The position numbers and the translations under genes are program-made. 55,067 nt of DNA, from NCBI GenBank assembly GCA_016278515.1, contig JADQBR010000008.1, positions 1-55,067 of the forward strand. The letters are read 5' to 3'. Shown here one piece after another: positions 4,601-53,543 of this stretch. This DNA comes from Bacillota bacterium (GTDB lineage Bacteria > Bacillota > JADQBR01). The notes below the pieces were generated by a model. It had not been told where the DNA came from, did not search any database, and saw only the letters and a list, made by a program, of their open reading frames with translations. Every line of letters starts with the position of its first letter. The first letter of the stretch is position 1.

Positions 4601-4696
4601 AAATTCATCTCTCCCATACAAATTAGCGTGCGCTTTATTGGGAAGGCCCCGGCAAGACCGCCGGGACCCTTATCTTAAACAACCGAACTGATACCC

Positions 4697-5740
4697 TTAT
4701 TCAATAATACCTAACTCCCTCAGCTTATCTTCATAAACCTCATTCATTTCGCCCAGATATTGAGTAAACTCTTCACTTCCCATGAATTTCTCTTTTACGA
4801 AATACTTGTCCAAATAATCTGTTTTCCATGAATCACTTTCACTCAGCTTACGCAGGTTATCTTCCCACCATTTAACTGCTTCCTTCGGCATATCGGGCGG
4901 ACCGACAATGCCTCGAAATAAGGTCCACTCTAAATCAATCCCGCTTTCCTTTAAAGTAGGCACATCCGGTAAAGCAGGCAGACGTTCGTTCGTACTAACC
5001 GCCAACGCTTTTAAGTCGCCGCTCTTAACATATTCCAGAGCACCACTAACGTTATTCATGGTACCTTGAATGTGATTGCCCAGAAGCGCAGTAGTTACAG
5101 CCCCGTCACCATCAAAGGGAACATAATCAAACTTGGTACCCGTCTTCTCTACGATTTGCATCAACAGCAGTTGCTCCCCGCCGGCAGCCGCCGTGCCGCC
5201 AAATTTTAGCGTTTTACCCGAATAATTAAGTAACTCTTCCATAGTATTAAATTCTGAATCCGAACGCACCATCACCACATATGGGTCTAATCCTAGTAAG
5301 GCAATAGGAGAAAAATCCTTGTAGTTCACGTCTATACCACCCCTAAGAGGAGTAGTTAAAAAGGTGGAGGTTTGTGACCCAATATAATGCGGCTCTCCTT
5401 TTTTACCTGCTAAGTAACCTAAGCCAACCGCCCCGCTGCCGCCAGGCTTATTAACAACGGTAATTGGCGTTGTAATGATGTTCTCTTTAGTCAAAACAGC
5501 CTGCATGGTTCTTAATAAAGTATCATGACCGCCCCCAGGTCCGTAGGAAGCCACAAATTCTAAATTGCGGCTAGGCTCCCACCCTTGTGCTTCACTACTT
5601 TCATTACTTGCATTGGAGTTATCCGCTTCTTGAGTATTCTGTGCTGCATCACCTTCAGGTTCATTAGAAGAACATCCGACAATAGCAACTGTTAATACTA
5701 AAAGTACTAACATCAATAATGCTAACGTTCTCTTTTTCAT
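4697..5740 (-). CDS. tctC: Tripartite tricarboxylate transporter substrate-binding lipoprotein TctC
   Basis: Extracytoplasmic solute-binding protein (347 residues, Bug family) that delivers its ligand to TctAB. The N-terminus has a basic MKKR start, a hydrophobic stretch and a lipobox ending VGCSS, so it should be lipid-anchored after cleavage before Cys. An acidic, Asn/Ser-rich linker follows. The Bug domain starts at PSRNLEFVASYGPGGGHDT and contains the typical FGGTAAAGGEQLL and TLKESGIDLEW blocks. The start ATG has GGGGG 8 bases upstream. It is upstream of the lyase and tctBA genes, so the binding protein leads the transporter genes in the operon. Confidence 0.92.
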   Translation of the reverse strand: MKKRTLALLMLVLLVLTVAIVGCSSNEPEGDAAQNTQEADNSNASNESSEAQGWEPSRNLEFVASYGPGGGHDTLLRTMQAVLTKENIITTPITVVNKPGGSGAVGLGYLAGKKGEPHYIGSQTSTFLTTPLRGGIDVNYKDFSPIALLGLDPYVVMVRSDSEFNTMEELLNYSGKTLKFGGTAAAGGEQLLLMQIVEKTGTKFDYVPFDGDGAVTTALLGNHIQGTMNNVSGALEYVKSGDLKALAVSTNERLPALPDVPTLKESGIDLEWTLFRGIVGPPDMPKEAVKWWEDNLRKLSESDSWKTDYLDKYFVKEKFMGSEEFTQYLGEMNEVYEDKLRELGIIE

Positions 5741-5852
5741 GTTTATAACCCCCTATATTCTTTTTCATTTGAGTACCGGCAAAAACCAGAAACTAGTTCT
5801 TCTAAGCACCTCCACCTCCTTCTTTTTCTATTTCAAGCTAGCTCCACCCCCA

Positions 5853-6482
5853 TTACTTTCCTGTGTCCGCAATTTCTTGAAGAATACGGGCTGCACGCAC
5901 CACGTTAAAGATAGCGCAGTGGCAGGGTCGGGCCAGTTCTTCTGCAGCTTTCCGGGGGTCTTTGCCCCGTTTTATATCCTCCACCATGGCTCGAACGGCA
6001 TTAGCCGCCACCATGCCATGTCCGCACATAGTAGTTACAGACAGCACCCTTTCTTCAGGAAGTTTCTCGGTTTTACCCCAAATGCCCAAAGAAAAGTTTG
6101 CCGTATGAGGCTGCAAGCCAACTTTATGGCAACATTCTTTTGTTGTTTCCAAAAGACCGGAGATGACCACGGATAAACCTAGCTCCTCTTCTTTCAATTC
6201 CTGCAAAATCTTTGTTATTTCCCCTTGATTCGTAAATACTCCGTTAAAAGTAGATGGTGCGTCAGGCACCCCATCAATTATTTCCTGAGCGCTTTTCATG
6301 TAAAGGTTCCGTACCTTTAGGCCTCCTAAGTTGACTGGATTATGGTGATTTAGTAAGGCCAAGTGTCTCTTAACTTTAGGCGCCGAACCTTCATCATTTA
6401 TGCCCTTAGACGGCATGGACATGACAACAAAATCGTCCTGTAAGTCTTCTTTGGGACCAAGACGGTGCAAACTATGGGTCAT
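5853..6482 (-). CDS. Unrecognised Cys/His-rich protein, 209 aa
   Basis: I do not recognise this family. The 209-residue protein is soluble. It has three Cys/His groups that could bind metal or a cluster: C117-C118-H119, C153 and H155 in MCGHGM, and C187-H188-C189 in PCHCAIFN. It starts at ATG 6482 and overlaps the stop of the preceding Fe-S protein gene by one base, so the two are almost certainly translated together and may form a complex. Downstream are tctC and the lyase gene. A role in the same organic-acid pathway, perhaps as a subunit of an Fe-S enzyme, is inference from position only. Confidence 0.75.
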   Translation of the reverse strand: MTHSLHRLGPKEDLQDDFVVMSMPSKGINDEGSAPKVKRHLALLNHHNPVNLGGLKVRNLYMKSAQEIIDGVPDAPSTFNGVFTNQGEITKILQELKEEELGLSVVISGLLETTKECCHKVGLQPHTANFSLGIWGKTEKLPEERVLSVTTMCGHGMVAANAVRAMVEDIKRGKDPRKAAEELARPCHCAIFNVVRAARILQEIADTGK

Positions 6483-33586: not shown

Positions 33587-34975
33587 TTACATCAAGAATA
33601 ATACTGCGAACACTGTACTGACAAACAGTCCCGATAAAACAGGAATTAAGTTCTTGCGTACCAAATCCAGTACCGGCACCCCGGATATACCAGCTACGGC
33701 TACCAAAGAGCTCCAGGCCACCAGAGTTCCACCACCAAACCAGATACTGCCCATTTGTCCTACGGCAGCTAATGTAGCAGTAACATTAGTATCGCCGCCA
33801 GACATAGCAGCTGCCAGTGTACCTACTACAGGCAGTCCTGAAAACCCTGAGCCGTCTAATCCGGTAATTGCGCCTAAGCCAAGCAGACCAAACGCGGCAA
33901 AAAACCCTGTAGGCGGAATTACCTCAGCAACAATTTCACCCACGTCAAAGAGAAAACCCGGAGCACCCTCTCCCAAAATAATGGGTGATGTCTCGCCATT
34001 TCCTAAGAAGAAAAATCCAGCAATGGGGATAATAGGACCCATGACTTTAAATGCAAATACCAATCCCTCGGCAATGTAATCAGCAATTGTGTCAAAGCCG
34101 ACAATACCGTCGGTTAAGAGGGCTGCAAATATCATCAGCAGTATGGCCACGCCGCCTAGCAGTGCTGATGCATCCCCTCCCTTAATGTCAAAAGCAAATA
34201 GAGATATTACGACAGCCAGCATGGAAATTGCCAGTGCCCAAACTAGTATTTTGCCTTTGCCCGAATCAGTGGTCTTGTTTGGATCACTGTCAGTAATACC
34301 TTCGTTACTATTCATATATTCATCTATTTCTTTACTGCCAAATGCCGCAATTTCTTTTCGATTAAGAATCCAAGCTAGTGTCAATGCAATAACCCCGGAT
34401 ATTACCGCCAACAGACCACCCTTATAGGTAATCATTTCAATAGGTACACCGGCGGAACCGGCTGTTAAACCTGGTGCTCCTTGAATAATAACGTCACCAG
34501 CCAATGTCATGCCCTGACCTGCCAAGGCCAAAGCCACGGCACCCATCATTGGCGGCAAACCCGCACGTACTGCAGGCGGCAGCAACAATGCCCCAATCAA
34601 CGGTACCGCTGGAGTAGGCCAGAAAAACAGTGAAATCAAAACGGTACCTGCAATAATAACACAATAACTTATTAATGGTGAACCCATAAGCTTACGCATT
34701 GGCTCAACCATCATCTTATCGGCACCAACTGCGGTGAGGGATTTTAAGAGTGCCACCATCAGACCGATAATAAGAAAGATACTAAATAACTCTTTAGCTG
34801 CCACAAGACTGGCATTAAAGACTACCTGAACACCGCCAACAACGCTTCCCAAGTAATACCATCCTATTAGGAAAGTAAAAAAGACACAGGGAATAACTAC
34901 ATTGCGGCGAAAAATCATAGTGAGTACAACTAAAAGAACACCAATTACATACATCCAATGTGATACTGTTAACAT
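33587..34975 (-). CDS. Polytopic secondary transporter, paralogue A (family uncertain)
   Basis: 462 residues with about 12 hydrophobic segments. I do not recognise the family with certainty; the layout resembles ion-transporter-superfamily carriers for organic anions (two halves, FWPTPAVPLIGALLLPPA and GLDGSGFSGLPVVGTLAAAM as half-site-like loops). It is clearly paralogous to the carrier at 44986-46368: long blocks such as DYIAEGLVFAF, VMGPIIPIAGFFFLG and LVRKNLIPVL are shared. ATG 34975 follows GGGAGGTGCATT; the upstream frame to 35005 lacks a site. It ends the cluster that contains the B12 mutase, so it probably imports the pathway substrate or exports a product. Confidence 0.8.
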   Translation of the reverse strand: MLTVSHWMYVIGVLLVVLTMIFRRNVVIPCVFFTFLIGWYYLGSVVGGVQVVFNASLVAAKELFSIFLIIGLMVALLKSLTAVGADKMMVEPMRKLMGSPLISYCVIIAGTVLISLFFWPTPAVPLIGALLLPPAVRAGLPPMMGAVALALAGQGMTLAGDVIIQGAPGLTAGSAGVPIEMITYKGGLLAVISGVIALTLAWILNRKEIAAFGSKEIDEYMNSNEGITDSDPNKTTDSGKGKILVWALAISMLAVVISLFAFDIKGGDASALLGGVAILLMIFAALLTDGIVGFDTIADYIAEGLVFAFKVMGPIIPIAGFFFLGNGETSPIILGEGAPGFLFDVGEIVAEVIPPTGFFAAFGLLGLGAITGLDGSGFSGLPVVGTLAAAMSGGDTNVTATLAAVGQMGSIWFGGGTLVAWSSLVAVAGISGVPVLDLVRKNLIPVLSGLFVSTVFAVLFLM

Positions 34976-37833: not shown

Positions 37834-38286
37834 TTATTTTAATTTTACTATCATTTCCACTTCAACTGCAGCATCCATGGGTAATTCGCTGACACCCACT
37901 GCGGAGCGAGCATGCTTGCCTGCTTCGCCAAAAACCTCACCTATCAGTTCGGATACACCGTTAACCACCTTAGGCTGAGCGTTGAAACCTTCAGCACTGT
38001 TTACAAAACCGGTAACTTTAACAACCTTTTCGATTTTGTCCAAGTCAGCAACAGTTTTAATTGCCGCTAAACAGTTTAATGCACAAATCTTAGCAGCCTC
38101 ATACCCATCTTCCACACTGAAATCTTTACCTAATTTTCCTTGGTATTTCAGTTCACCGTTAAGCAACGGGATTTGTCCGGCAGTGTAAACATAACCATCC
38201 ACCTCAACCGCAGGTACATAAGCCGCTAAAGGCATAGCAGCCTCAGGTACATCCAGACCTAGTTCCTTTAATTTCTGTTCAATCAT
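37834..38286 (-). CDS. RidA/YjgF family enamine/imine deaminase
   Basis: 150 residues. The family start IEQKLKELGLDVPEAA is followed by YVPAVEVDGYVYTAGQIPLL and by a C-terminal block GKHARSAVGVSELPMDAAVE. The Arg in ARSAVG matches the conserved substrate-binding Arg of RidA; the usual CxxCE-like signature is replaced by the GVSELPMDAAVEVEM form of the longer subfamily. RidA proteins hydrolyse reactive enamines and imines made by PLP enzymes to ketones and ammonia. Its place between the mutase and PLP-enzyme genes makes a dedicated step in this pathway likely. ATG 38286 follows GAGGAGGTG. Confidence 0.9.
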   Translation of the reverse strand: MIEQKLKELGLDVPEAAMPLAAYVPAVEVDGYVYTAGQIPLLNGELKYQGKLGKDFSVEDGYEAAKICALNCLAAIKTVADLDKIEKVVKVTGFVNSAEGFNAQPKVVNGVSELIGEVFGEAGKHARSAVGVSELPMDAAVEVEMIVKLK

Positions 38287-38393
38287 AAAAGACACCTCCT
38301 CATTTTTTTGAAAATTGGGAGGTTGGAAAGCTGGAATAACCTGTTTCCAACCTCTAACTAAATATATTTAAAAGGGTATAACCCTTAAAAACC

Positions 38394-40205
38394 CTATTCT
38401 ATCGTAATAGTGCCGCGCCCTGAGCGCCCGGGATAAGCTCCGTCCTCTTTGCTGCCCAATATGCCGTCATAAAGTGCCTGAACAAAACATCCTTTGTCCA
38501 GAACATTCTGCAGCACCTGCTCGATACCACTGACCAACGTGCTTACCATTTCTTCTGCTTTGACGGTAGGTTGAATACCTGCTGAACCAAAGAAGCGGAA
38601 GGCCTCTTTAGTAGCTCTCAGAGTATCTATTCGAGATGAGGCAATAATGGGTCCACCAGAATAAGCCTCATCTGAAGATGCAATGCTAATGGCATCTACA
38701 TTTAAGGAAGCCGCTAGACTGGCATGTAATGCCGTAGTCATAGCGGACTGAACCCGGTCTTCATCTTGGGTTAAGAAACCAATTGGCGCACCAGGCCAAA
38801 TTGGCGCATCAATCACCTGACGCAGCGCCATAATTTTAGCTGCATTGAAATCAATGTAATTATCATCCATTCCACCGTTAATCATCATTTCAGGCGAGTA
38901 GCAGAACAATGGCTGCAGAACAGTACTAGCACCTAAACGACGGGCCAAATGGTTTACTATCAACATACCGGCAAAAGCTTTATGAGCTGGCACGCCGCAG
39001 AGTTCTTCGTTAGTAACAATGTCAAAGGGCATACCGAATTTGGCTGCATATTTTATGGCGGCGATAGCATCCACTGTCATTCTTTCGGGGTCTGTTCCTG
39101 CGCCCAGCGAACCGTAGACGATATTGATCTTAGTCATGTCTGCACCTAAGTGACCGGCTAACAGTACTGTCTCGGGGGTGTTTAATCCCCTATGGGCTCT
39201 AACCTGCCAAATAGTGGACGGTTGAAGGTGTTTCTTAGTCTGCGCTAAGTTTTCCAACGTGATAATGGAACCGTCCTGTTCGTGGGTAAGATACCCGCTT
39301 AAAAAACCTTCGGTCCTAGCTGCCCATGACGGGTCAAAATGAACGGCACCATCGGCGCCCCATGCTTCCGAAGTTTTAATGTGAGCAATGTCCATAAAGG
39401 GACAGCCTGTTCCGTACTGAATAAATACTACTGGGTTATCTTTAACATGCTGCAGTTTTTGTGCAGACATGCGTTCTTTGGTTGCCTCAACATAACGTTC
39501 AAGAGAATCTATCTCATCCTGACCCAGCGGCCTGCACTTATCAGGTATTTTTCTATCATTGTAAAAATCTTGAACCATCTCGTCACTGTATCCCAAATAT
39601 TGGCTAAGCAGCTCTAAGTTTTCTGCTTCCCCCTGATTAATGAGCATCTTTTCTCGAATTGCCGCTCTCTTAACAGCCGGTGAAGTTTTACCTTCAGCCC
39701 AGTTCATTATCGAATCGACAATCTGGTCTAACATCCGTTCCATACCTTGGTGTTTGTACTGGTATGTATAGCCTTCAGTAAGATTACTTTTCTCTTTTAC
39801 TGCACTGCTCTTATCAGGCACATACTCTTTATTCTCTATAAATGCCAGTAGTTCTTCGGGCTTTGTTCCGGGCCCAAATCCTGCGTCGAATCCTAACTCT
39901 GCCGCTAATTCCGGCCGAACAGCCATGCCGCCGATAGCGAGCTTAACTTTATCTCTAATACCTGCTGCTTCGGCTAAGTCAACAAAGTTTGCCAGAAGAT
40001 CAGCAACACCGTACCCAAGGGTACGACTAATTAGAATAGTATCTACGTCGTTTCCCATTGCTGTATTAATTATTTCCCCTGCTTTGTAATCAGGAGGCAA
40101 CAGAATAGTCTCAAAGCCTGCTTCATCTAAGCTGCGCTTCATGATTTTTAAGCCAATATCATGAACCGGATCTAGAGGTGCAAGCAGTATCGGTTTTTGT
40201 TGCAT
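38394..40205 (-). CDS. Adenosylcobalamin-dependent mutase: MutS-like B12 domain fused to MutE/OraE-like barrel
   Basis: 603 residues. Residues 1-130 form a B12-binding domain: LDPVHDIGLKIMKRSLDEAG (D12, H15, G18), the SRTLGYG loop, then KLAIGG and GFGPGTKPEELLAFI, as in glutamate mutase MutS. Residues 230-600 resemble the catalytic barrels of glutamate mutase E and D-ornithine aminomutase OraE: FIQYGTGCPF, WQVRAHRGLN, SSDEAYSGGP, IDTLRATKEAF, and a C-terminal CFVQALYDGI with GAYPGRSGRGTI. The motif is DxxHxxG instead of DxHxxG. The PLP lysine that lies 11 residues after the His in KamE and OraE is Leu26 here, so a carbon-skeleton mutase is more likely than an aminomutase. ATG 40205 follows GGAGGGGG; an earlier ATG at 40259 overlaps the upstream stop. 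Substrate unknown. Confidence 0.78.
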   Translation of the reverse strand: MQQKPILLAPLDPVHDIGLKIMKRSLDEAGFETILLPPDYKAGEIINTAMGNDVDTILISRTLGYGVADLLANFVDLAEAAGIRDKVKLAIGGMAVRPELAAELGFDAGFGPGTKPEELLAFIENKEYVPDKSSAVKEKSNLTEGYTYQYKHQGMERMLDQIVDSIMNWAEGKTSPAVKRAAIREKMLINQGEAENLELLSQYLGYSDEMVQDFYNDRKIPDKCRPLGQDEIDSLERYVEATKERMSAQKLQHVKDNPVVFIQYGTGCPFMDIAHIKTSEAWGADGAVHFDPSWAARTEGFLSGYLTHEQDGSIITLENLAQTKKHLQPSTIWQVRAHRGLNTPETVLLAGHLGADMTKINIVYGSLGAGTDPERMTVDAIAAIKYAAKFGMPFDIVTNEELCGVPAHKAFAGMLIVNHLARRLGASTVLQPLFCYSPEMMINGGMDDNYIDFNAAKIMALRQVIDAPIWPGAPIGFLTQDEDRVQSAMTTALHASLAASLNVDAISIASSDEAYSGGPIIASSRIDTLRATKEAFRFFGSAGIQPTVKAEEMVSTLVSGIEQVLQNVLDKGCFVQALYDGILGSKEDGAYPGRSGRGTITIE

Positions 40206-40615: not shown

Positions 40616-40620
40616 AATTG

Positions 40621-40652
40621 TTGGTCAGTTGGTCAGTTGGTCAGTTGGTCAG
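40621..40652. repeat. Four perfect tandem 8-bp repeats upstream of the mutase promoter
   Basis: The unit TTGGTCAG occurs four times head to tail, ending 5 bp from the -35 hexamer of the mutase operon promoter. It may be a regulator-binding array or a slippage-prone repeat that varies expression. Confidence 0.85.
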
Positions 40653-40785: not shown

Positions 40786-40912
40786 GATAGCTAACCGCCA
40801 CTAATACAGTTAGGTAATGCCCCCGATTCAAAGGGATAAGTGGCGCTAAGCTCCTGGATAGGCTTAACTAAGCATCAGATGAAAACCCCATCTGATGCAA
40901 GTTTTCGCTTTA
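40786..40912 (-). ncRNA. Candidate structured RNA element, copy 2
   Basis: About 127 bases on the minus strand, homologous to copy 1 at 14509-14625. It starts with the stop codon of the FAD-protein gene (TAAAGCGAAA). Stems are CATCAGAT/ATCTGATG with a GGGGTTTT loop, a long stem CGCCACT/AGTGGCG, and a last hairpin CTAT-CGG-ATAG. Differences from copy 1 in the stems are paired, while the GGGGTTTT and TTAGTTAAGC segments are unchanged. It lies upstream of the mutase operon promoter and in the same direction. It could be a small RNA processed from the upstream transcript, a cis element, or a mobile repeat. Confidence 0.45.
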
Positions 40913-42193
40913 TACCAGCTTTTGATTGTAAATTCCAGTCAATCCGGCCTTTTCAACCCTATCCTTAATTTCATTTACGTCGGTGGTATACAAATTCTCT
41001 TTCTGCATGTGCTCAAAATAGACCGAGCCGGAGAATGTATACTTAAACTTTAGGCCTTCTTCAGTGGCCATTTGAGCGCCCACGTAGTCAATCGCATCAC
41101 CAATTGCTAATTCAGTAGGAATGGTTAAAAGTTCCTTACCTACTGCAAATCTTACTGCGTTACATCCAGCCAATAATCCAGTGACAATAGCCTCAGTATG
41201 GCCTACCAAAAGGCCGGCCTTTTCGCCGCCGCAGAACAAGTTATTTACGCCATCTACCTTAAGCTCGTTGTTGCGTGGTGAAAGAGCAAGATAACGCATC
41301 GAGTTCCCTATACCGCCAGAATATGGATCTTCGTAACGGGCATTTTCAAAACCGGGAATTTGACGTAAGGTTTCCAACGGATAAAACGGGCTCATTAACT
41401 TGGCATGTCCGGTATCAAGCAGTATCACGTTTTCAGCAAATTCTTTGAGAGCATACTGCTGACAAGCTTTTTTGCTAAGTGCATCATCGCCTTTTCGAAG
41501 ACTCTCCGGGATCGGCACAACGCAAACACCGCTTTCATTAAGCTCCTGTTCAATCTCTTTGGAAAGAGATTCTTTATGCAATTTGCAAGAGCCGCTCATG
41601 GCACCGTAAGAACCATCAGCTTTTTTACCCATAAATTCTTTAGCGCCTGCTTTGGCACCCATGCTCACTCTGCCGCCAAACGTTGGGCAACGCAGGACAC
41701 ACATTGCACATCCGTTGCCATACTTGGAGCAATTTCCGGTAGGACCAGCAGTACCAGTGGTTTCAACGAATACGTCGCCTTTGACCACTTGACCGTCCTG
41801 CAATACGATGCCGATTATTTTGTCGCCGTCCATTTCGACATCCTTAGCCCTGGCCTGGAGCTTTATTTCAACTCCTGCATTCAAAAGAACTTTTTTAATA
41901 GCAGGTTCGATTTTTGCAACATCATAAAGGGTAGCATGCTTATGCCCAGGAAAATCAATGTTTTTATGACGCGCTACTTCGTCAACTGCTTCAAAAATTT
42001 CGTTTCCTCCCATTGCAATAGCTTCCTCTGTTGCTGGGAATCGTCCATTATTACGCATAATACCGCCAACTAATCCAGTTCCAAGCAACATGTCAGTTCT
42101 TTCCAGCAAAGTCACCTCAGCGCCAGCCTTAACAGCAGACAGTGCAGCTCCCGAGCCAGCCCATCCTCCACCAATGATAACAACTTTAGCCAT
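40910..42193 (-). CDS. FAD-dependent oxidoreductase with a four-cysteine cluster motif
   Basis: 427 residues. The N-terminal dinucleotide fold VVIIGGGWAGSGAALSAVKAG binds FAD. A C-terminal LFCGGEKAGLLVGHTEAIVTGLLAGCNAVR (shown in part as GGEKAGLLVGHTEAIVTG) is like the FAD-closing segment of MnmG/TrmFO-type flavoproteins. Residues 155-169 hold C-x6-C-x2-C-x3-C (NCSKYGNGCAMCVLRCP), a likely Fe-S or structural metal site that is not part of standard MnmG. It is probably an enzyme of its own rather than a tRNA-modification protein. It follows the 143-residue gene by 72 bases and lies upstream of the mutase operon. Oxidation or reduction of the pathway intermediate is inference. Confidence 0.75.
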   Translation of the reverse strand: MAKVVIIGGGWAGSGAALSAVKAGAEVTLLERTDMLLGTGLVGGIMRNNGRFPATEEAIAMGGNEIFEAVDEVARHKNIDFPGHKHATLYDVAKIEPAIKKVLLNAGVEIKLQARAKDVEMDGDKIIGIVLQDGQVVKGDVFVETTGTAGPTGNCSKYGNGCAMCVLRCPTFGGRVSMGAKAGAKEFMGKKADGSYGAMSGSCKLHKESLSKEIEQELNESGVCVVPIPESLRKGDDALSKKACQQYALKEFAENVILLDTGHAKLMSPFYPLETLRQIPGFENARYEDPYSGGIGNSMRYLALSPRNNELKVDGVNNLFCGGEKAGLLVGHTEAIVTGLLAGCNAVRFAVGKELLTIPTELAIGDAIDYVGAQMATEEGLKFKYTFSGSVYFEHMQKENLYTTDVNEIKDRVEKAGLTGIYNQKLV

Positions 42194-42264: not shown

Positions 42265-42696
42265 TTATTTAATAAATGAGATACTCATGCCGGTGTCAAA
42301 GCCCAACTCAAGCCCTGAAATAAACTTTTCAGACTTAATAACAATGTTTAAATGATTTGGCATATGCGTCTCATCAAAACCCGCAATTTCTCCAATGCAC
42401 CGTTCATCCCAATATAGCTTGTCCCCTGCAACCAAAACGCCGCCGTTTAATATTTCTACAAATCCACCATAGGCTACCCGGTCAACTTTTTCTCCGGGTT
42501 TGGCACCAGTTTCATCCGTAAAAATCAGTTCATGTATGTCATACTTTTTTACTGCCCTGGAAATAGCCGTCATAAGCTTCAATTCACGGTTATCTAGTTT
42601 ACTATCCAGCACCACCGCCAAGCGGCTGTCTACTGAAACTTTTTTTGCGTAAGGATTACTTTTAAACAATCCCGCTTTGTAAGGATCCTTAGCCAT
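42265..42696 (-). CDS. Conserved-looking protein of unknown function, 143 aa
   Basis: 143 residues, soluble, no membrane segment or obvious metal motif. The N-terminus DPYKAGLFKSNPYAKKVSVD is followed by RLAVVLDSKLDNRELKLMTA and by an alternating beta-rich C-terminal half (GGFVEILNGGVLVAGDKLYW; IGEIAGFDETHMPNHLNIV). I do not recognise the family. It is first in the FAD-protein transcript, with GGAGGAATATT before ATG 42696, and lies just downstream of the FCD regulator. The position suggests a part in the same pathway. Confidence 0.65.
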   Translation of the reverse strand: MAKDPYKAGLFKSNPYAKKVSVDSRLAVVLDSKLDNRELKLMTAISRAVKKYDIHELIFTDETGAKPGEKVDRVAYGGFVEILNGGVLVAGDKLYWDERCIGEIAGFDETHMPNHLNIVIKSEKFISGLELGFDTGMSISFIK

Positions 42697-42954: not shown

Positions 42955-43665
42955 TTAGGCTTTATGATAGTACTTTTCGACATCGGCCATTAGGTTTTCT
43001 ATATGCCTTACCATAGCCTGATCAGCAGCATCTGGATCACGCTTAACAATAGCCTCTATGATCTTCTTATGATCGATAGCAATTACACTACGTACTTCGG
43101 TGCGAATATATTCCAGCACAGGACTTAACTGTCCATTTTCTCGAATTAATTCCATAGCAGCCTGCAATACTTTATTCTTAGCCGCTTGGGCAATATAACG
43201 ATGAAACTTAACATCTTCTTCTGGAGAAGTACCTACTTCTCCGTAACGTTCTTCCTGAAGTTTTGTGATTCTCGATAGCTCTGCTATTTCCTCATCCGTA
43301 GCGTTAAGTGCTGCTAAACGAGCTAATTCCCGTTCGATAGCTCGACGAGCTACCAATAGCTCCAGCAGATTATCATGGCCTTTTTCCTGTAATAAACTTA
43401 GCAGTTCCCTGCTCTGCATGTGTCTGTTATTTTCTTTCTTAAGATTTAGTAAATGAGTATCACCCTGATTCGTAAGCTTTCGACCCTGATATCCAACTTT
43501 TTCAGTTAATCCCTGCTCGTCCATCTCACTTAGTATTCGACCCACTGTTGCCTCACTTAAATTGATTTCCTTTAGACGCAGTTCCTTACTTAAGGTACCT
43601 GCACCAACCGGATCAATTCTATTAGCCATGTTAGAAAGTATTTGATATTCGTATTTCCGGTTCAT
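42955..43665 (-). CDS. Transcriptional regulator: non-GntR winged helix fused to an FCD domain
   Basis: 236 residues. The C-terminal 150 residues are an FCD ligand domain: LLELLVARRAIERELARLAA, EDVKFHRYIAQAAKN with the metal-site Asp/His, and IDHKKIIEAIVKRDPDAADQ. The N-terminal domain differs from GntR: it reads NLSEATVGRILSEMDEQGLT and KVGYQGRKLTNQG, like the winged helices of NrpR-type regulators. FCD domains usually follow GntR helices, so the pairing is uncommon. ATG 43665 follows GGGAGGG. It lies between the cation-exchanger and 143-residue genes and probably controls the B12 cluster in response to an organic or amino acid. Confidence 0.85.
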   Translation of the reverse strand: MNRKYEYQILSNMANRIDPVGAGTLSKELRLKEINLSEATVGRILSEMDEQGLTEKVGYQGRKLTNQGDTHLLNLKKENNRHMQSRELLSLLQEKGHDNLLELLVARRAIERELARLAALNATDEEIAELSRITKLQEERYGEVGTSPEEDVKFHRYIAQAAKNKVLQAAMELIRENGQLSPVLEYIRTEVRSVIAIDHKKIIEAIVKRDPDAADQAMVRHIENLMADVEKYYHKA

Positions 43666-43736
43666 AGAGGGCCCTCCCAAGTGTTTACTTCAATCATAAT
43701 ATATATTTCACTAAAACCACTTAACAATTAATTAGA

Positions 43737-44741
43737 TTATATTCCAAATCCTGATAATACCATTATTACGAATACGGCATAAACCAACCCAGAGCTAATA
43801 AGTACCCGCGGGTTTAACTTACCGCTAAACCGCACCAAAATATATACTGTTGCCGGCATAATAAGAGCCATTATTCCATTAATAAGTGCTGCACCGCTCA
43901 ATTCCCAAGGAGTTAGAAGCATTCCAATAGCAGGAATGACAGAACTCTGAAAAACCATCGCACCGGTTATGTTTCCTAAAGCCAACGTATCTTTTCCGCG
44001 GCGTATCCATGTAACACTGTTAAATTTCTCTGGTAATTCCGTTGCTACCGGCGTAATTAAGACTGATAATATAAACGCTGAAATACCAAAGTGTTCGGCA
44101 ACTACTTCAATTCCACCGACAAACAGGTTCGCGCCGTAAACAATTGCCGCCATTGCAATGGCCACCTGCAGCAATATCATTGATGTCGCCGGTTCAGCTT
44201 TCTTTTTGGCTAAGAATAAGGGATGCAGTTCCTCTTCTTCATCAGCTTCGTCGTCATCGGTAATTGTCTTATATGCATACCAACCGTAAAGGGCAAACAA
44301 ACTAATTGCAACTACTACCTTTATTGAATGGCTTGGGATAAAAGCTGCCAATATGGCTAGTGTATAGACTTTCAGAAAGAAAGATAGATCTCTTAACATG
44401 ACTTTTTTATTTATTGTTATTTTGGGAGCCCTCTTGCCGCGGCGGGAAAATACTAAAACGGCAATGCCAGTGACACAGAAGGCTAGTGTTCCAAGCATAA
44501 AGGGCGCACCCAAAATTGCACCTGTTCCGATTTCGTGTCCGCTTTCCCCTTCACTAAAAACTATAGCAATGATAGGTACCATTGTCTCAGGCAATGCGGT
44601 AGCAACTGCCGCCAAAAGACTTCCAACCGCTCCCTCAGGCAGTCCAAAACGTTTTCCAACCCATTCAATTGCGTTAGTAAAAAGTTCTGCACCAGCCATA
44701 ATGAAGCCGAAACTCACGACCAGCACCAACGCTGTGATCAA
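43737..44741 (-). CDS. Sodium/calcium exchanger family (CaCA) membrane protein
   Basis: 334 residues with about 10 membrane helices in two halves. The alpha-repeats are present: GAVGSLLAAVATALPETMVP with GTGAILGAPFMLGTL, and SVLITPVATELPEKFNS with LALGNITGAMVFQSSVIP. An acidic loop (DDDEADEEEE) separates the halves. The start is TTG 44741, 9 bases after AAGGAGGT. It faces the FCD regulator gene with a 71-base gap on the same strand. In this context it may move cations, or a charged metabolite coupled to them, for the neighbouring catabolic system. Confidence 0.85.
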   Translation of the reverse strand: MITALVLVVSFGFIMAGAELFTNAIEWVGKRFGLPEGAVGSLLAAVATALPETMVPIIAIVFSEGESGHEIGTGAILGAPFMLGTLAFCVTGIAVLVFSRRGKRAPKITINKKVMLRDLSFFLKVYTLAILAAFIPSHSIKVVVAISLFALYGWYAYKTITDDDEADEEEELHPLFLAKKKAEPATSMILLQVAIAMAAIVYGANLFVGGIEVVAEHFGISAFILSVLITPVATELPEKFNSVTWIRRGKDTLALGNITGAMVFQSSVIPAIGMLLTPWELSGAALINGIMALIMPATVYILVRFSGKLNPRVLISSGLVYAVFVIMVLSGFGI

Positions 44742-44985: not shown

Positions 44986-46368
44986 CTACATCATAAAGAC
45001 GACTGCGATGACAGTTGCCACAAACAATCCTGTTAAGACCGGAATTAAGTTCTTACGAACCAACTCTAAAACAGAAACCCCGCAGATACCAGCTACTGCA
45101 ACCAAAGAACTCCACGCGACCAATGCGCCGCCGCCGAACCAGATTGCACCTAACTGTCCAATTGAACCAAGGGTAGCTGCTACGTTGGCATTACCGCCAG
45201 CCATAGCACCAGCAAGTGTACCAACTACGGGCAGACCGGAGAAACCAGAGCCGTCCAAACCAGTAATTGCACCAAGAATTAATATGCCAAATGCAGCAAA
45301 GAAACCAGTAGCCGGAATTGCAGATGCTATTATTTGACCAACGTCAAACAAAAAGCCCGGTGCACCCTCACCTAAAATCACCGGTGCAAAATCATTACTT
45401 CCTAAGAAGAAGAAACCGGCAATCGGAATAATTGGGCCCATTACGTTAAAGGCAAATACTAAACCTTCTGCAATATAATCAGCAACACTATCGAAACCGC
45501 CAATACCGTCACTAATAATAGCAGCAATAGAGATGACGATAATCGCTACACCACCAAGCAGGGCGGAAGAGTCTCCACCTTTGATGTCAAAGGCAAACAT
45601 GGAGAAGATAACGGCTGCCATAGAGATGCCTAATATCCAAACCAAAGCTTTTCCTTTTGCAGGATCTTTCGCCTTTCCTTCAACTAATTCATCTTCTGCT
45701 GACGCTGCCAATTCACCTTGGTATGCAGCAGAATCAAATTCGCTGATTTCTTTTCTATTCATGTACCAAGCCAGAACGAGAGCAATAATACCAGCAATTA
45801 AAGATAAGATTGTTACTTTAGAAGTAACTAACTCAACAGGTACACCTGCTGCTCCAGCTGTAATACCAGGTGCTGCCTGAATTAGAGTATCAGCAGCAAG
45901 GGTCATACCTTGACCGGCAAGTGCTAATGCTATTGCAGCCATCATAGGTGGTAGCCCTGCAGCAATAGCCGCTGGAATTAACAACGCACCTAATAGCGGA
46001 GCTGCCGGAGTAGGCCAGAAGAATAGCGAAATAATAACAGTTGCAATGACTAAAACGACATAACTGATCAAAGGACCGGACATTAAGCCTTTCATAGGCT
46101 TAATAATCATTTCATCAGAGCCTTCTCTTTGCAACGCCTTAAGCAAGGCAACCATTAAACCAATAATTAAGAAAATACTAAAAAGTTCTTTTGCCGCTAC
46201 CAAACTTGCGTTAAATACTACTTGTACTGCACTTACGGGACTGCCAAGGAAATACCAACCGATACCGAAAGTAAAAAGTACGCAAGGGATAACAACGTTG
46301 CGACGGAAAATCATTGTAGCAACAACAACCAGAACGCCAATCACATATAGCCAGTGAGCAGTAGTCAT
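44986..46368 (-). CDS. Polytopic secondary transporter, paralogue B (family uncertain)
   Basis: 460 residues, about 12 membrane segments, closely related along its full length to paralogue A at 33587-34975 (shared HWLYVIGV/HWMYVIGV start, FWPTPA, ITGLDGSGFSGLPVVGTLA, and LVRKNLIPVL). Differences concentrate in the central hydrophilic loop. It has its own long leader with a 10-codon ORF and its own terminator, so it is transcribed separately. ATG 46368 follows GGAGGTGCAAT. The pair brackets the B12 cluster, suggesting one imports the substrate and the other a related compound or the product. Confidence 0.8.
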   Translation of the reverse strand: MTTAHWLYVIGVLVVVATMIFRRNVVIPCVLFTFGIGWYFLGSPVSAVQVVFNASLVAAKELFSIFLIIGLMVALLKALQREGSDEMIIKPMKGLMSGPLISYVVLVIATVIISLFFWPTPAAPLLGALLIPAAIAAGLPPMMAAIALALAGQGMTLAADTLIQAAPGITAGAAGVPVELVTSKVTILSLIAGIIALVLAWYMNRKEISEFDSAAYQGELAASAEDELVEGKAKDPAKGKALVWILGISMAAVIFSMFAFDIKGGDSSALLGGVAIIVISIAAIISDGIGGFDSVADYIAEGLVFAFNVMGPIIPIAGFFFLGSNDFAPVILGEGAPGFLFDVGQIIASAIPATGFFAAFGILILGAITGLDGSGFSGLPVVGTLAGAMAGGNANVAATLGSIGQLGAIWFGGGALVAWSSLVAVAGICGVSVLELVRKNLIPVLTGLFVATVIAVVFMM

Positions 46369-47860: not shown

Positions 47861-48739
47861 GTGGTTATGACGTCGATACCATTTACAAAAATGAACGGCT
47901 GCGGCAACGACTTTATTATTATCGATAATAGGACAAGACATCTTCAAGAATCTGACTTGACTGATTTTGCCAAAGCCATCTGCACACAAAACTTCGCCAT
48001 TGGTGCGGACGGTTTGTTATTATTAACCGAATCTAAAGGAAATGACTTTAAAATGCGATTGTTTAATCCCGATGGCAGCGAAGGTGAAATGTGCGGTAAT
48101 GGTGCGAGATGCATTGCTTGGTTTGCCTTCGCCAAAGGGGTTGCCGGGAAAACCATGACCTTCGACACCAAAGCGGGGGAAATTAATGCTTATATAATTG
48201 AATCAAACCAAGTTAGGCTAACCTTACCCGAAATGATAAAGAGCCAAGAAATCCACACCGGGAATATTTCTGGACAAGATGGAAGCTATAATTATCAGTA
48301 TAGCAGCCTTTTTTTAGGGGTTCCCCATTGCATCATATTTCTACCAGAAAAGATTTCAACGGAGCAACTCTTTAACATTGGTAGAGAAATTAGATTTAAT
48401 CATAAGCATTTCCCGAATGGTACTAACGTTAATTTCGTAGAAATTGCTGGAAACAATACCATATCTGTCCGTACTTACGAAAGGGGCGTAGAAAAGGTAA
48501 CCTTAGCCTGCGGTACAGGGTCTGCTTCCAGTATAGTGGTAGCAGCCTCCAAGCAGTTGGTCACCTCACCGGCAACAGTGCAAACGCTGGGGGGAAACCT
48601 TACTATTGATTTTTTGCAGGACGCCACATATATTAAAGCAATTTCTCTACAGGGGCCGGTAAATGTGGTTGCACAAGGGGAATACTATCCTTCCTCATTT
48701 AATAGTAACCTTATACACTTAGACAAGGATGGTAGATGA
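47861..48739 (+). CDS. dapF: Diaminopimelate epimerase-family amino-acid racemase
   Basis: 292 residues of the DapF fold, a cofactor-free two-base racemase. The first catalytic Cys is C78 in EMCGNGARC and the second C217 in LACGTGSAS; KMNGCGNDFIIID opens the protein. DapF makes meso-diaminopimelate for lysine and cell wall. Here it is the first gene of a sigma-54 operon with an NhaC-type antiporter, which is odd for a housekeeping gene and suggests a catabolic racemase acting on an imported amino acid. The start may be GTG 47861 or ATG 47867, both after AGGGGTGAT. The second motif ends SAS where many DapF have ACA. Confidence 0.85.
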   Translation: MVMTSIPFTKMNGCGNDFIIIDNRTRHLQESDLTDFAKAICTQNFAIGADGLLLLTESKGNDFKMRLFNPDGSEGEMCGNGARCIAWFAFAKGVAGKTMTFDTKAGEINAYIIESNQVRLTLPEMIKSQEIHTGNISGQDGSYNYQYSSLFLGVPHCIIFLPEKISTEQLFNIGREIRFNHKHFPNGTNVNFVEIAGNNTISVRTYERGVEKVTLACGTGSASSIVVAASKQLVTSPATVQTLGGNLTIDFLQDATYIKAISLQGPVNVVAQGEYYPSSFNSNLIHLDKDGR

Positions 48740-48849
48740 TAATTTTAGAATTAACCAAATTTAAAGGGGGTGATCATTAGGGAAGGGTAACTTTATAGCC
48801 ATCCAACTACTTGACGCTTATGACTGTTTTAAAAAAAGGAGGTAAAAAA

Positions 48850-50541
48850 ATGTTGGGTAAACGATATTCAATTAAAAAAATATTGCTAGTAGCCACAGTT
48901 GTCACCTTAGCCTTACTTTTCTCTGGAGTAGCCTTAGCTGCAGATGCAGCTGACAGTAAACCTGATTTTGGTATTCTGTCACTGCTTCCTCCAGTAGTAG
49001 CAATTGCATTGGCTATGATCACAAGACAGACTGTCCCTGCACTTTTTGTGGGCGCGTGGGTAGGCGGTACCATGCTTGCCGGCGGAAACCCTATATCGGG
49101 TTTTGGTAAAGGTGTAGAATTCGTCTGGAACAGCCTGGGTGACCCTTGGGGAGCAAGAATTGTACTGACCAGTCTGACAATGGGTGGACTCGTAGGTATT
49201 ATGCGGGTTGGCGGCGGAATTGATGCCGTAGTCCGCTGGATTACCTCAAAAATCAGAAACGCAAAAGGCGCTATGTTAGCTACTTCAGCAGCCGGTCTTA
49301 TCATTTTCTTTGAAGATTACGTTAACACTGTGGTTGTGGGAACTGCCATGACCCCCATTACCGATAAGTACAGAATATCTAAAGAAAAACTATCATATAT
49401 AGTCGATTCTACGGCCGCCCCAGTAGCTTGTGTTGCTGGAATTTCATCTTGGATAGCTTTTATGGTGGGCCAAATTGAAACACAATTTACCAGTTTAGGA
49501 ATATCTTATTCAGGTTACGGTGCTTACTTACAATCTATTCCCTTTATTCTATATAATCTAGCTGCAATTGTCTTGGTTTTTGTTGTATCTGGAAGCGGCC
49601 GGGACTTTGGGCCTATGCTCAAGGCAGAAAGAAGAGCTAGGGAAACAGGGAAACTACTCGGTGATGATGCTACACCACTTTTAAATACTGAATCAGACAA
49701 CTTGGCGCCAGCTGATGATACTCCGGCAAAAATGATGAATTTTATCGTTCCGCTGGTTGTATTGGTAGGGTTAATCTTCTTCCTAATGCTTAATACTGGA
49801 GGATGGCCAGGCGTCTCTATCCAAACAGCCATTGGCGCTGCCAGCAGTTCCCACTCTTTGGTTTGGGGATCATTTGGCGCAATTTGGATTACCCTTATCT
49901 TCTACAAAATTCAAGGTATTGCTACATGGTCAGCCCTCTTTGAAGGTTACATTGAAGGTATGCGCTCCATCTTCATGGGAACGTTAATCTTAATTTTTGC
50001 CTGGACCATAGGCTCTGCTATCAAAGGCGTGGGCACTGCCGACTTCCTAGTGGGGTTAAGTGAAGGCCTCCTCAGCCCGGCTTGGATTCCACTAATCGCA
50101 TTTATTATTGCGGCTGTGGTTTCATTTAGTACCGGAACTTCTTATGGTACTATGGGAGTTGTTATTCCAATAGTGATACCTTTGGTACATGCAACGTCTG
50201 GATTAACTGGGATTGACCCTATGACCTTTATGTTCCCAGCAATTGGTTCGGTTTTTGCTGGTGCGGTCTTCGGAGACCACTGCAGTCCCATTTCTGATAC
50301 TACAGTTATGTCATCCATGTTCACCGGCTCTGACCACATTGACCACGTCAAAACTCAAGTTCCATATGCACTAGTTGCTGCTTGTGGCGCAGTTGTCGGC
50401 TATATTGGTGTAGCCTTAGGCCTGCCGGCAATCATTAACTTAATACTTTCTATAGGCAGTGCAGTTGGACTGTTCTGGATTCTTTCCAAACCCATTGAGG
50501 AGAGCACACCAGCCTCAAGTGATGTAAGCAGCAATACGTAA
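48850..50541 (+). CDS. NhaC-family antiporter with an N-terminal signal-like segment
   Basis: 563 residues with about 12 membrane helices. The motifs EDYVNTVVVGTAMTPI and GDHCSPISDTTVMSSM are typical of the NhaC family. Members act as Na/H antiporters or as amino-acid or malate/lactate exchangers. The first 35 residues (YSIKKILLVATVVTLALLFS, ending GVALAAD) look like a cleavable signal peptide before the usual first helix. ATG 48850 follows AAAAAAGGAGGT; the frame to 48811 lacks a site. It is the second gene of the sigma-54 operon with the racemase, so amino-acid exchange is the more likely function. Confidence 0.85.
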   Translation: MLGKRYSIKKILLVATVVTLALLFSGVALAADAADSKPDFGILSLLPPVVAIALAMITRQTVPALFVGAWVGGTMLAGGNPISGFGKGVEFVWNSLGDPWGARIVLTSLTMGGLVGIMRVGGGIDAVVRWITSKIRNAKGAMLATSAAGLIIFFEDYVNTVVVGTAMTPITDKYRISKEKLSYIVDSTAAPVACVAGISSWIAFMVGQIETQFTSLGISYSGYGAYLQSIPFILYNLAAIVLVFVVSGSGRDFGPMLKAERRARETGKLLGDDATPLLNTESDNLAPADDTPAKMMNFIVPLVVLVGLIFFLMLNTGGWPGVSIQTAIGAASSSHSLVWGSFGAIWITLIFYKIQGIATWSALFEGYIEGMRSIFMGTLILIFAWTIGSAIKGVGTADFLVGLSEGLLSPAWIPLIAFIIAAVVSFSTGTSYGTMGVVIPIVIPLVHATSGLTGIDPMTFMFPAIGSVFAGAVFGDHCSPISDTTVMSSMFTGSDHIDHVKTQVPYALVAACGAVVGYIGVALGLPAIINLILSIGSAVGLFWILSKPIEESTPASSDVSSNT

Positions 50542-50604
50542 AATACTTAAAAATAAAGTTTAATAGACTCTTTGAGCAGGAGTTTGTTAAAGCACTTCTA
50601 TTTG

Positions 50605-50641
50605 GTTGAACTCACTAAAGTTTAGTGAGTTCAACTTTTTT
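50605..50641 (+). terminator. Terminator of the racemase-antiporter operon
   Basis: Perfect 15-bp palindromic stem GTTGAACTCACTAAA/TTTAGTGAGTTCAAC followed by six T, about 60 bases after the antiporter stop. Confidence 0.9.
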
Positions 50642-50839
50642 ATGCTACCAATAGTATCTCTTTTTGGCACAAGGCAACTAACTATCCAACTGGAGAATAA
50701 GCGGCTACTTATAAAAAAGAGTGCTCATTAAGCTTAGTCCGCTATACCAACTCACATCAGATATGGTGCCTATAAGAAAGATAAATTATCTGCTATAATG
50801 GGACAAACAGTTAGTTTGATGAGGTGAGGAGAAACTGCT

Positions 50840-52732
50840 ATGCATAATTTAAATAAATACCTATCTGCATGTATAGACAGTATTGAAGAGGGATTAATAA
50901 CCATTGATAGGACAGGTCAAATAAAGATATGCAACGATAGAGCCTGCCAGTTCTTTGGAATTGACCCGAGAATTGGGCCCGGTCACACCGCCGGAAAAAT
51001 AAACCCTGCTGATATTGTCATACTTGCCGACAATTGTTTAGGTGCCGATGACGGAAACCTGACTCCACAAAACTTAGGGATAATTGGCGTTAACCCATCC
51101 CACATTCGACCAGGCATAGGTATCATAGCAATTGGCAGCTACAATACCGGCGCACCTGCTAATTATAAGATTTCATCCGAGGAAAATGGTGTTGTCCACC
51201 TGGAGAAAACCATTGATAATATACCCATATCTGCTGCCATCGACTATAATAATAAAAATTTGGTTATTAAAGTGCAGGAACAACAATATAATTTCTTTTA
51301 CTCAATTGCAGCCGGTCATCTGGTTATCCTTGATGCTAAGACACTTAACATTAAATTTTACCAATGCAAAGGCTATACCGCCAGAAGAGAAAGCATCAAA
51401 TCCATTTTAAGTGGTAATACTTACACTCGCAAAGGACCCGGCGCACCTATGCCTAAACTTTTCAATAAACCGGTTCAAGAAATTTTTCCGGATTCAGAAA
51501 TAATTGATCAGTTAATTAGTGATGCAAAAGGCATCTCCAAAGAAACCGCCGATAAAGAAACCATCGTAAACGGTATACCCATTAGATGCTCTATAGTAAA
51601 GGTTAAACAGCAAAATCTAATTATTGGTGCAACCTTAATATTTAAAGACGTGACAGAAATAAAAACATTGTTAAAACAAAGGGACCAAGCTTTGGCCTCA
51701 AAGGAATATTTGGAAGAGGAATTAAAAAGAAAAAGAATCCAAACTAATGCTTTAAAAGAAATAATAGGTGAGAGTGATTGCCTAAAACAAACCATTAATT
51801 TAGCTATGAAAGCGAGCGATACTAACTCAAACGTGCTGCTTTTAGGCGAAAGCGGGACCGGGAAAAATCTATTTGCAGAGGCTATTCATAAAGCCAGCAC
51901 ACGAAGAAAAGGTCCTTTTGTGTATATAAACTGTTCTTCAATACCCGAGAATCTGATCGAGAGCGAATTATTCGGTTATGAAAAGGGGGCATTTACAGGC
52001 GCCCTAGCCTCAGGTAAAATTGGAAAGTTTGCGTTGGCACACCATGGAACTATTTTTTTAGATGAAATAGGAGAACTCTCTATCAATCTCCAGGCTAACT
52101 TATTACACTTCCTGCAAAATAAGTCTTTTACCAGAGTAGGAGGTCTAGAACAAATAAACGTTGATGTGAGGGTTATCGCAGCAACTAATAAAGACCTTGA
52201 AAAATCGATAGAAAACAATGAATTTAGGGAAGATCTTTATTACCGCATTAACGTGATGGCTATTACTATTCCACCCTTAAGGGACCGCAAAGATGATATT
52301 AAGCCTCTGGTAGAGCACCTCCTCCCGAAAATATGTAGAAAATTGTCCAAAAAAGTAAAGAATATAGATCAGGACGCCATCAACATATTAAAAAGTTATC
52401 ATTGGCGAGGCAATGTAAGAGAACTAGAAAATGTGTTGGAAAGGGCAATAAATCTCGCCTCAGGTTCCACCATTTTTATCAAGGACCTACCCAAAGACGT
52501 GATAGAAAATCTGAAGGAACCTGTTTGTGATAATATCGTTGAGGTGATGCACGCAGGACCGGTAAAAGAAACCCTCAGGCAGGTGGAAAAACAACTGCTT
52601 TTGAAAGCCCTTGAACTAAGCAAAGGCTCTCGCAAAGAAGCTATGGAACTGTTGCAACTGAAAAAAACAAATTTTTACGGAAAACTGAAAGAACATGGCA
52701 TAAATACCAGTGAAACTGAAACCATCAGTTAA
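50840..52732 (+). CDS. Sigma-54-dependent transcriptional activator with PAS domains
   Basis: 630 residues. An N-terminal PAS-like domain (residues 1-110, SIEEGLITIDRTGQIKICND), a middle region and a second PAS-like segment (residues 200-290) lead to a coiled linker. The AAA+ domain (about 315-550) has Walker A GESGTGKN, GAFTGA near residue 383, Walker B GTIFLDEIGEL and the arginine-finger region FREDLYYRINVM. A Fis-type helix-turn-helix ends the protein (SRKEAMELLQLKKTNFYGKL). Similar regulators control amino-acid fermentation genes in Clostridia. It lies just after the sigma-54 operon and likely activates it, through the inverted repeats at 47.4-47.6 kb. The promoter of this gene itself is not clear. 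Confidence 0.92.
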   Translation: MHNLNKYLSACIDSIEEGLITIDRTGQIKICNDRACQFFGIDPRIGPGHTAGKINPADIVILADNCLGADDGNLTPQNLGIIGVNPSHIRPGIGIIAIGSYNTGAPANYKISSEENGVVHLEKTIDNIPISAAIDYNNKNLVIKVQEQQYNFFYSIAAGHLVILDAKTLNIKFYQCKGYTARRESIKSILSGNTYTRKGPGAPMPKLFNKPVQEIFPDSEIIDQLISDAKGISKETADKETIVNGIPIRCSIVKVKQQNLIIGATLIFKDVTEIKTLLKQRDQALASKEYLEEELKRKRIQTNALKEIIGESDCLKQTINLAMKASDTNSNVLLLGESGTGKNLFAEAIHKASTRRKGPFVYINCSSIPENLIESELFGYEKGAFTGALASGKIGKFALAHHGTIFLDEIGELSINLQANLLHFLQNKSFTRVGGLEQINVDVRVIAATNKDLEKSIENNEFREDLYYRINVMAITIPPLRDRKDDIKPLVEHLLPKICRKLSKKVKNIDQDAINILKSYHWRGNVRELENVLERAINLASGSTIFIKDLPKDVIENLKEPVCDNIVEVMHAGPVKETLRQVEKQLLLKALELSKGSRKEAMELLQLKKTNFYGKLKEHGINTSETETIS

Positions 52733-53543
52733 CTCCCTCACTTAATCTCAGCATCAACAGAAATATTTTAAATACGGCTAAGTAGTCGTCACCATTATAT
52801 GCTACCGTTCTGCAGTCTCTCAAAAAACATCCAGGTATTGCAGAACATACCTTTGCCATTTCAGCCACCGTAAAGGTTACTTCAAGTTGCACTTCACCTT
52901 CTGCCTTTGTCGGTGGTAACTGTTTTAGAACGCTCATGGCCTGGGAAACCCCTGCGGTCAATTGGTCCTCTAACACCTTGGCAGGAAGAATTTTTGCCGC
53001 ATACCGGCCGATAGCATTCTTTACTATGACACCTACAGGTCCGTCCAGTTCTTCTGCTGCGCTTTTTATAGTCGCCTGGTCACCGGAAACAAAAGCAACA
53101 GGCACATTGAAGTAACCGGCAACCCGACCGTTGATGCCCATTTCCCCCATCGGCTGACCATTAATCTTAACATCCGACATCCTAAAAGCATAAGTGTGGT
53201 CAAATACAGCGCTGCTTGTCCCGGCTCTAGCATGATAACCGACGAGAAACACTCCGTCAAATGTTTCATCAATGCCCTGCATCATACTTAACGGATTATA
53301 CTGACCCCTGATAAGAGACGCATACGGATAAAGCTCCTCAGCAATTATATTTGTACCGGCATCATGTGCATCGTTAACAACTACTTCCTGTGCTCCGTTG
53401 TCAAAAGCAGCTTTTATAATTTGATTAACTTCTTTAGTCATGATTTTTACCGCGCTTTGATACTCGGGACCACCATGTGATATTTGGTTTGGCGATACAA
53501 TGCTTGAGATACCTTCCATGTCAACCGATATGTAAATTTTCAT
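52725..53543 (-). CDS. D-aminopeptidase, M55 (DppA) family
   Basis: 272 residues, close to the 274 of Bacillus subtilis DppA. The zinc ligands fall at nearly identical positions: D8 and E10 in VDMEG, H60 in NDAHDAG, H104 in GYHARAG, and E134 in MGEMG (E133 in DppA). H116 matches the nucleophile-region His. It releases N-terminal D-amino acids, notably D-Ala, from peptides. It would supply free D-amino acids next to an amino-acid racemase. It converges with the sigma-54 regulator, overlapping its 3' end by 8 bases. ATG 53543 follows GAGGAGG; aspartate kinase lies upstream. Confidence 0.93.
   Translation of the reverse strand: MKIYISVDMEGISSIVSPNQISHGGPEYQSAVKIMTKEVNQIIKAAFDNGAQEVVVNDAHDAGTNIIAEELYPYASLIRGQYNPLSMMQGIDETFDGVFLVGYHARAGTSSAVFDHTYAFRMSDVKINGQPMGEMGINGRVAGYFNVPVAFVSGDQATIKSAAEELDGPVGVIVKNAIGRYAAKILPAKVLEDQLTAGVSQAMSVLKQLPPTKAEGEVQLEVTFTVAEMAKVCSAIPGCFLRDCRTVAYNGDDYLAVFKIFLLMLRLSEGVN

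Follow-up and report, generated by a model that had tools for sequence, protein, structure and literature searches.

The gene module around the mutase

The window analysed here, a stretch of 55,067 nucleotides from a bacterium living without oxygen, carries on its minus strand, at positions 38394-40205 as the first-pass annotation had placed it, a gene for a 603-residue protein (P0001) that fuses a B12-binding domain to a TIM barrel. Its start is the ATG at 40205, with the ribosome-binding site GGAGGGGG ahead of it, and the assignment draws on the gene call, PF02310, an AlphaFold2 model and structural comparison (VIA). The gene sits within a run of minus-strand genes, of which those for the FCD regulator, DUF6917, the FAD protein, the mutase, RidA, the PLP enzyme and KamB make up a conserved module. 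Upstream of the mutase, in order of transcription, lie a membrane transporter (transporter B, 44986-46368), a CaCA-type sodium/cation antiporter (43737-44741; TIGR00367, 88 bits, below the cut-off), an FCD-domain transcription regulator (42955-43680; PF07729, 84.6 bits), a DUF6917 protein (42265-42696; PF21891, 155 bits) and a GidA/TrmFO-like FAD protein (40910-42193; PF01134, 123.6 bits). The mutase is followed by a RidA-family imine/enamine deaminase (37834-38295; PF14588, 95.8 bits; PF01042, 68.6 bits), a fold-type-I PLP enzyme (P0002, 36297-37769), a KamB-type reactivase ATPase (P0003, 35100-36200) and an unclassified membrane transporter (transporter A, 33587-34969).

The KamB-type protein scored 220.6 bits against the equivalog model NF052386, whose cut-off is 210, and is 29% identical to the KamB-like protein encoded at the kamDE locus of the same genome. 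The PLP enzyme was recognised from its structural model (pLDDT 87.6), the invariant K290 and its co-occurrence with the mutase; a fold search returned broad fold-type-I matches with tied Z values of 21-22.6 (threonine aldolase, GABA aminotransferase, PhnW and SHMT), so that no specific family was picked. For DUF6917, neither a solved structural relative nor a paper was recognised. The FAD protein has four cysteines (155, 162, 165 and 169) that are invariant in 24 homologues and look like the ligands of an iron-sulfur cluster in a flavoprotein of the GidA/TrmFO type. The two transporters, which flank the module, are 71% identical to each other, and homologues of transporter A occur in 26 of 80 loci. 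Transporter A had no match in Pfam and neither transporter had one in NCBIfam, and the name GntP was dropped for this reason. Between the genes for the FAD protein and the mutase, which are 704 bp apart, the 8-mer GTTGGTCA occurs four times in perfect tandem (40620-40651), and no cobalamin riboswitch or other Rfam RNA was found within the window.

Further genes surround the module. A second DapF paralogue (DapF2; 47861-48739, plus strand; TIGR00652, 239 bits) diverges from the operon; it lies 7.7 kb away from the mutase and is not the housekeeping DapF, which the genome encodes separately. DapF2 adjoins genes for an NhaC/Tet(35)-like antiporter and an apparent sigma54-type regulator (47861-52732, opposite in strand to the module), and a homologue of the M55-type D-aminopeptidase DppA lies at 52725-53543 (221.8 bits, below the cut-off of 430). 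The other downstream genes (speE/speB, BshB/BshC, PBP/MreC and glycolysis, judged by eye from the sequence) are lineage-variable and housekeeping-like, and were set aside as not belonging to the pathway.

Fold, nearest relatives and cofactor sites

The N-terminal domain (residues 1-127; 39825-40205, minus strand) is a B12-binding Rossmann domain, matched by PF02310 at residues 12-119 with 47.5 bits (cut-off 32.1) and superposable on several B12 domains with a VIA Z of about 18. An AlphaFold2 model built from 30 homologues (mean pLDDT 85.5, pTM 0.81) places a TIM barrel at about residues 149-603 (38397-39761, minus strand). P0001 therefore has the make-up of an AdoCbl mutase, a TIM barrel together with a B12 Rossmann domain carrying an axial histidine. 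Pfam and NCBIfam covered the B12 domain only, in NCBIfam through sub-threshold matches to KamE, OraE, MutS and other B12-protein models, and the barrel part of approximately 470 residues had no curated family in either collection. The first-pass annotation had named a high-identity match to a characterised mutase as one result that would overturn its reading, and Pfam, NCBIfam and profile searches yielded no characterised or named family covering P0001. The protein belongs to a conserved enzyme family without a name and without a characterised member.

Both halves of the protein are closest to lysine 5,6-aminomutase (KamD and KamE; 1xrs, 8t0v, 9q1a). The barrel matched KamD with a VIA Z of 31.4 over 386 residues at 17% identity (8t0v_A), compared with 25.6 for glutamate mutase E and 25.0 for OraE. 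Taking hhalign E-values as the single comparisons that they are, the barrel aligned with KamD at 2e-6 locally (210 columns) and 3e-9 globally (442 columns), with OraE at 9e-4 at the end of the barrel, and with glutamate mutase E at 0.15. The homology to KamD in profiles includes the N-terminal helices as well as the barrel. KamE was the best profile match of the B12 domain (E 1.6e-19, 8t0v_C), with about 33-38% identity over 82-136 residues. Thus, a KamE-type B12 domain appears to have been fused ahead of a KamD-type barrel, and, as with KamDE, a KamB reactivase is encoded nearby. The mutase differs from KamDE in being a single fused chain that begins with the B12 domain, in reading DPVHDIG where KamE has DAHTVG, and in the replacement of the PLP lysine, the two phosphate-binding arginines and the serine at the PLP ring nitrogen.

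Other known systems are more distant. D-ornithine 4,5-aminomutase (OraE, 3kow) shares the barrel fold (Z 25), the weak profile match at the barrel end and a B12 domain, whereas its own B12 domain is C-terminal, its PLP is bound by Lys629 and it works with an OraS subunit. Glutamate mutase (MutS/MutE; 1cb7, 6h9e) resembles the mutase in barrel fold (Z 25), probably in working without PLP, and in a QVR-type motif, but its barrel showed no detectable profile homology, its subunits are separate and its cobalamin motif is the canonical DxHxxG. PF06368 had no match in P0001 (Pfam, E 0.1), and glutamate mutase E was rejected as a relative of the barrel, since the likeness is one of fold with no profile signal. 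Fused isobutyryl-CoA mutase (IcmF, 4xc6) also has an N-terminal B12 domain before a mutase barrel, although its sequence similarity to P0001 is weak and confined to the B12 domain (IcmF match at chain residues 53-139). IcmF carries an internal G-domain and acts on an acyl-CoA substrate.

These comparisons modify the first reading of the gene. The fusion of an N-terminal B12 domain to a barrel stands, but the domain, described as MutS-like, is nearest to KamE by sequence; of the two relatives proposed for the barrel, OraE is retained, with KamD closer, and glutamate mutase E is not. The domain order is unusual against OraE, MutS and MutE, but the precedent of IcmF means that order alone does not make the protein unique. 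KamDE, which had been cited for its lysine only, proved by fold and profile comparison to be the nearest relative. The conserved operon with its KamB-type reactivase and co-occurring PLP enzyme, the second copy in the genome and the linked DapF and DAP-dehydrogenase homologues are additions to that annotation.

The cobalamin motif, D12-P-V-H-D-I-G18 (40152-40172, minus strand), departs from the DxHxxG of PLP- and B12-dependent aminomutases in that the aspartate stands one residue farther from the histidine. Residues D12, P13, V14, H15, D16 and K20 were identical in all 105 distinct homologues, and column 18 held glycine in 97 and alanine in 8. Eleven residues past the axial histidine, where KamE has the PLP lysine K144, the mutase has L26 (40128-40130, minus strand); this column was leucine in 101 of the 105 sequences, phenylalanine, methionine or valine in 4, and lysine in none. 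The shifted motif and the non-lysine column, both reported in the first-pass annotation, are thus real and, being conserved across 105 homologues, represent constrained features of the family rather than chance.

In lysine 5,6-aminomutase, PLP forms a Schiff base with K144, its phosphate is contacted by R184, R268 and S189, its ring nitrogen by S238 and its phenolic oxygen by N299, and Y263 stacks on it (PMC3958899). With KamD numbering checked against the KamD sequence and contact roles taken from that study, a profile alignment at 17-20% identity, which is not a superposition of coordinates, places F290/D291 at R184, R339 at S238, A369 at R268 and Y364 at Y263. Columns 290, 291, 339 and 364 were invariant over the 105 sequences, and column 369 was alanine or glycine in a 30-sequence alignment. 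KamD R184, S238 and R268 and KamE K144 are therefore replaced across the family, and of the residues so compared only Y263 is retained. The loss of the lysine, the phosphate arginines and the ring-nitrogen serine makes it unlikely that the family holds PLP as KamDE or OraE do, in agreement with the earlier proposal, which had argued from the lysine.

Distribution and clues to the substrate

The module recurs across two sets of loci, one of 30 and one of 80. Within 8 kb of the mutase, the 80 loci encoded the PLP enzyme in at least 70 cases, KamB in at least 64, DUF6917 in at least 55, the FAD protein in at least 54, the FCD regulator in at least 52 and RidA in at least 40, counts that are lower bounds because some contigs are short. 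The mutase was present in 38 of 398 Bacillota genomes sampled, and the PLP enzyme was found in 37 of the 37 other mutase-positive genomes versus 0 of 40 mutase-negative ones (Fisher p 8e-23, a value that overstates independence because the genomes share ancestry). Both genes also occurred together in ten further genomes, Thermotogota and Atribacteria among them; a first impression that the PLP enzyme was absent from the Thermotogota and Atribacteria loci was wrong, as the gene lies farther out on the same contig. Members of the family were found in the cultured organisms Sporomusa malonica, Sporomusa acidovorans, Heliobacterium mobile, H. chlorum, Heliorestis acidaminivorans, Fervidicola ferrireducens and Thermovorax subterraneus.

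The module is present twice in the genome of the window, the second time on a different contig, and the two mutases are 61% identical. Each copy has a counterpart in the relative G038 and the two fall in different clades of the tree, which marks them as old paralogues. This genome further encodes a kamDE locus and a separate glutamate mutase E. The latter homologue (locus L223, contig C114, about 4678-5991, minus strand) has alanine (GGGISANIPY) at the position of Y177, the substrate tyrosine of glutamate mutase, and keeps R66, R100 and R149, and it may have a different specificity, judging from this substitution.

Genes of diaminopimelate (DAP) metabolism provide the clues to the substrate. 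In a tree, the DapF2 of the window grouped with mutase-linked DapF proteins with support of 100/100, and the remaining members of this clade adjoin the mutase in Thermotogota and Atribacteria, together with a diaminopimelate-dehydrogenase homologue. The clade keeps both cysteine motifs and most DAP-binding motifs, but valine replaces the asparagine of GNPHC (GVPHC), so that its substrate may differ from DAP. In Pseudothermotoga and one Atribacteria genome, the DapF homologue and the diaminopimelate-dehydrogenase homologue precede the mutase and KamB, and the dehydrogenase homologue exceeds the NCBIfam equivalog cut-off. In Pseudothermotoga, the mutase and KamB end a long same-strand array that includes RidA, DUF6917, the PLP enzyme, a TAXI-type TRAP transporter, a gene of the Asp/Glu-racemase family and genes for sarcosine-oxidase-like flavoproteins. 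Moreover, a DapA-like gene (245 bits, against a cut-off of 206) lies within the run in one Atribacteria locus, and one Bacillota locus has a DapA-family gene alongside, below the cut-off. Overall, a DapF homologue lies near the mutase in 5 of 80 loci and a DAP-dehydrogenase homologue in 3 of 80, and most loci show neither. Our best guess, a weak one given that the link occurs in few loci, is that the substrate is an amino-dicarboxylate, perhaps diaminopimelate. Separately, UASB270 has a mutase-adjacent DapF-like gene (L151, 4707-5567) with serine for cysteine in both catalytic motifs; it was rejected as a DapF2 because it has no catalytic cysteine motifs and does not group with the DapF2 clade.

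Candidate reaction and alternative explanations

We consider it likely that the fused protein represents a new family of AdoCbl radical mutases, related to lysine 5,6-aminomutase, that does not use PLP in the mode of that enzyme and that serves an undescribed pathway of amino-acid catabolism. Judging from the sequences, the mutase probably rearranges an amino acid by an undescribed route, and it probably has a new specificity. AdoCbl would be bound base-off/His-on through H15, and homolysis of the Co-C bond would generate a 5'-deoxyadenosyl radical at the barrel mouth. The radical would abstract a hydrogen from the amino-acid substrate, whose carboxylate or carboxylates may be anchored by basic residues that are invariant in the family, for example R336, R339 or K359, and a 1,2-rearrangement would follow without the lysine-bound PLP of lysine 5,6-aminomutase. 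The product would then be handed to the co-occurring PLP enzyme, RidA would convert the resulting enamine or imine to ammonia and a keto acid, the FAD protein may perform a redox step, and the KamB-type ATPase would swap out damaged cofactor. The module would be catabolic, for an amino acid, and the recurring DapF2 and DAP-dehydrogenase homologue, with the DapA-like gene found once, point weakly to diaminopimelate or a similar amino-dicarboxylate. Judged from sequence, the migrating group may be carbon or nitrogen, and the reaction may instead be an elimination.

A narrower form of this explanation, and not its opposite, is that the protein rearranges a carbon skeleton as glutamate mutase does, with a longer or D-configured amino-dicarboxylate as its substrate; the first-pass annotation had suggested that it may be a carbon-skeleton mutase. 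The arginine claw of glutamate mutase includes R149 (PMC9545868), and R336 of the mutase lies in a QVR motif as R149 does; judged by motif rather than by superposition, R297 might fit R100, no arginine was seen at R66, which lacks a clear counterpart, and Y364 fits Y177 by spacing. Beyond R336, the claw is not clearly reproduced. The absence of the PLP site agrees with such a reaction, as does the retention of carboxylate-side motifs in DapF2 without the asparagine of GNPHC, but profile similarity to glutamate mutase E was nil, PF06368 was absent and a separate MutE is already present in the genome. We regard this form as one possibility, held tentatively and with somewhat less than even confidence, and its sole positive hints in the mutase are R336 in the QVR motif and the loss of the PLP site. 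Alternatively, the protein could be a fused and rewired KamDE that still depends on both PLP and B12, with an internal aldimine formed through another lysine (K359, where barrel strand 4 ends, or K409 or K457), and that moves an amino group, for example on diaminopimelate or some other diamino acid. Of these lysines, K359 and K457 are invariant in the 105 homologues and K409 nearly so, so a lysine at one of these positions could in principle bind PLP; moreover, KamD and KamE are the nearest relatives in fold and sequence, Y364 aligns with the PLP-stacking Y263 and a KamB reactivase belongs to the module. The replacement of KamD R184, S238 and R268 and of KamE K144, however, and the fact that the constant partner is a separate PLP enzyme, make such an aminomutase unlikely.

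Ethanolamine ammonia-lyase removes an amino group through radical chemistry that needs no PLP, and an AdoCbl-dependent ammonia-lyase or eliminase working in this way would accommodate both the loss of the PLP site in a protein whose kin are aminomutases and the presence of RidA as a partner. The fold match is to KamD, however, and an eliminase is without direct support, so we judge this reaction quite improbable. Still harder to credit is a corrinoid methyl-transfer protein with a methyltransferase as its barrel: the B12 motif, in its HDIG form, is reminiscent of 1y80 and similar corrinoid proteins, but the Z of 31 to KamD over 386 residues far exceeds the 16-18 obtained for ThiC and dihydropteroate-synthase folds, and the linkage to a KamB reactivase speaks against a methyl carrier.

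Returning to the mutase related to lysine 5,6-aminomutase, a more specific proposal is that it catalyses an AdoCbl radical rearrangement unlike those already known, with an amino-dicarboxylate (for instance the diaminopimelate of peptidoglycan) as substrate, within an undescribed amino-acid degradation pathway that would include the PLP enzyme, RidA, the FAD protein and DUF6917 and would operate in Bacillota, Thermotogota, Atribacterota, Spirochaetota and Thermodesulfobacteriota. We find this proposal doubtful in its full extent, although conceivable. Among the papers searched, judged by titles and abstracts, none was recognised as dealing with the family or with mutase-based anaerobic degradation of diaminopimelate.

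To our knowledge, few kinds of AdoCbl mutase have been described, each serving a single route of fermentation or assimilation. The present family is conserved, its cobalamin motif is altered, its aminomutase barrel lacks the PLP site and a PLP enzyme strictly co-occurs with it, which together point to a reaction and a pathway that are so far undescribed and, since the family is present in cultured organisms, directly testable. The family is also relevant to the divergence between aminomutases and carbon-skeleton mutases.
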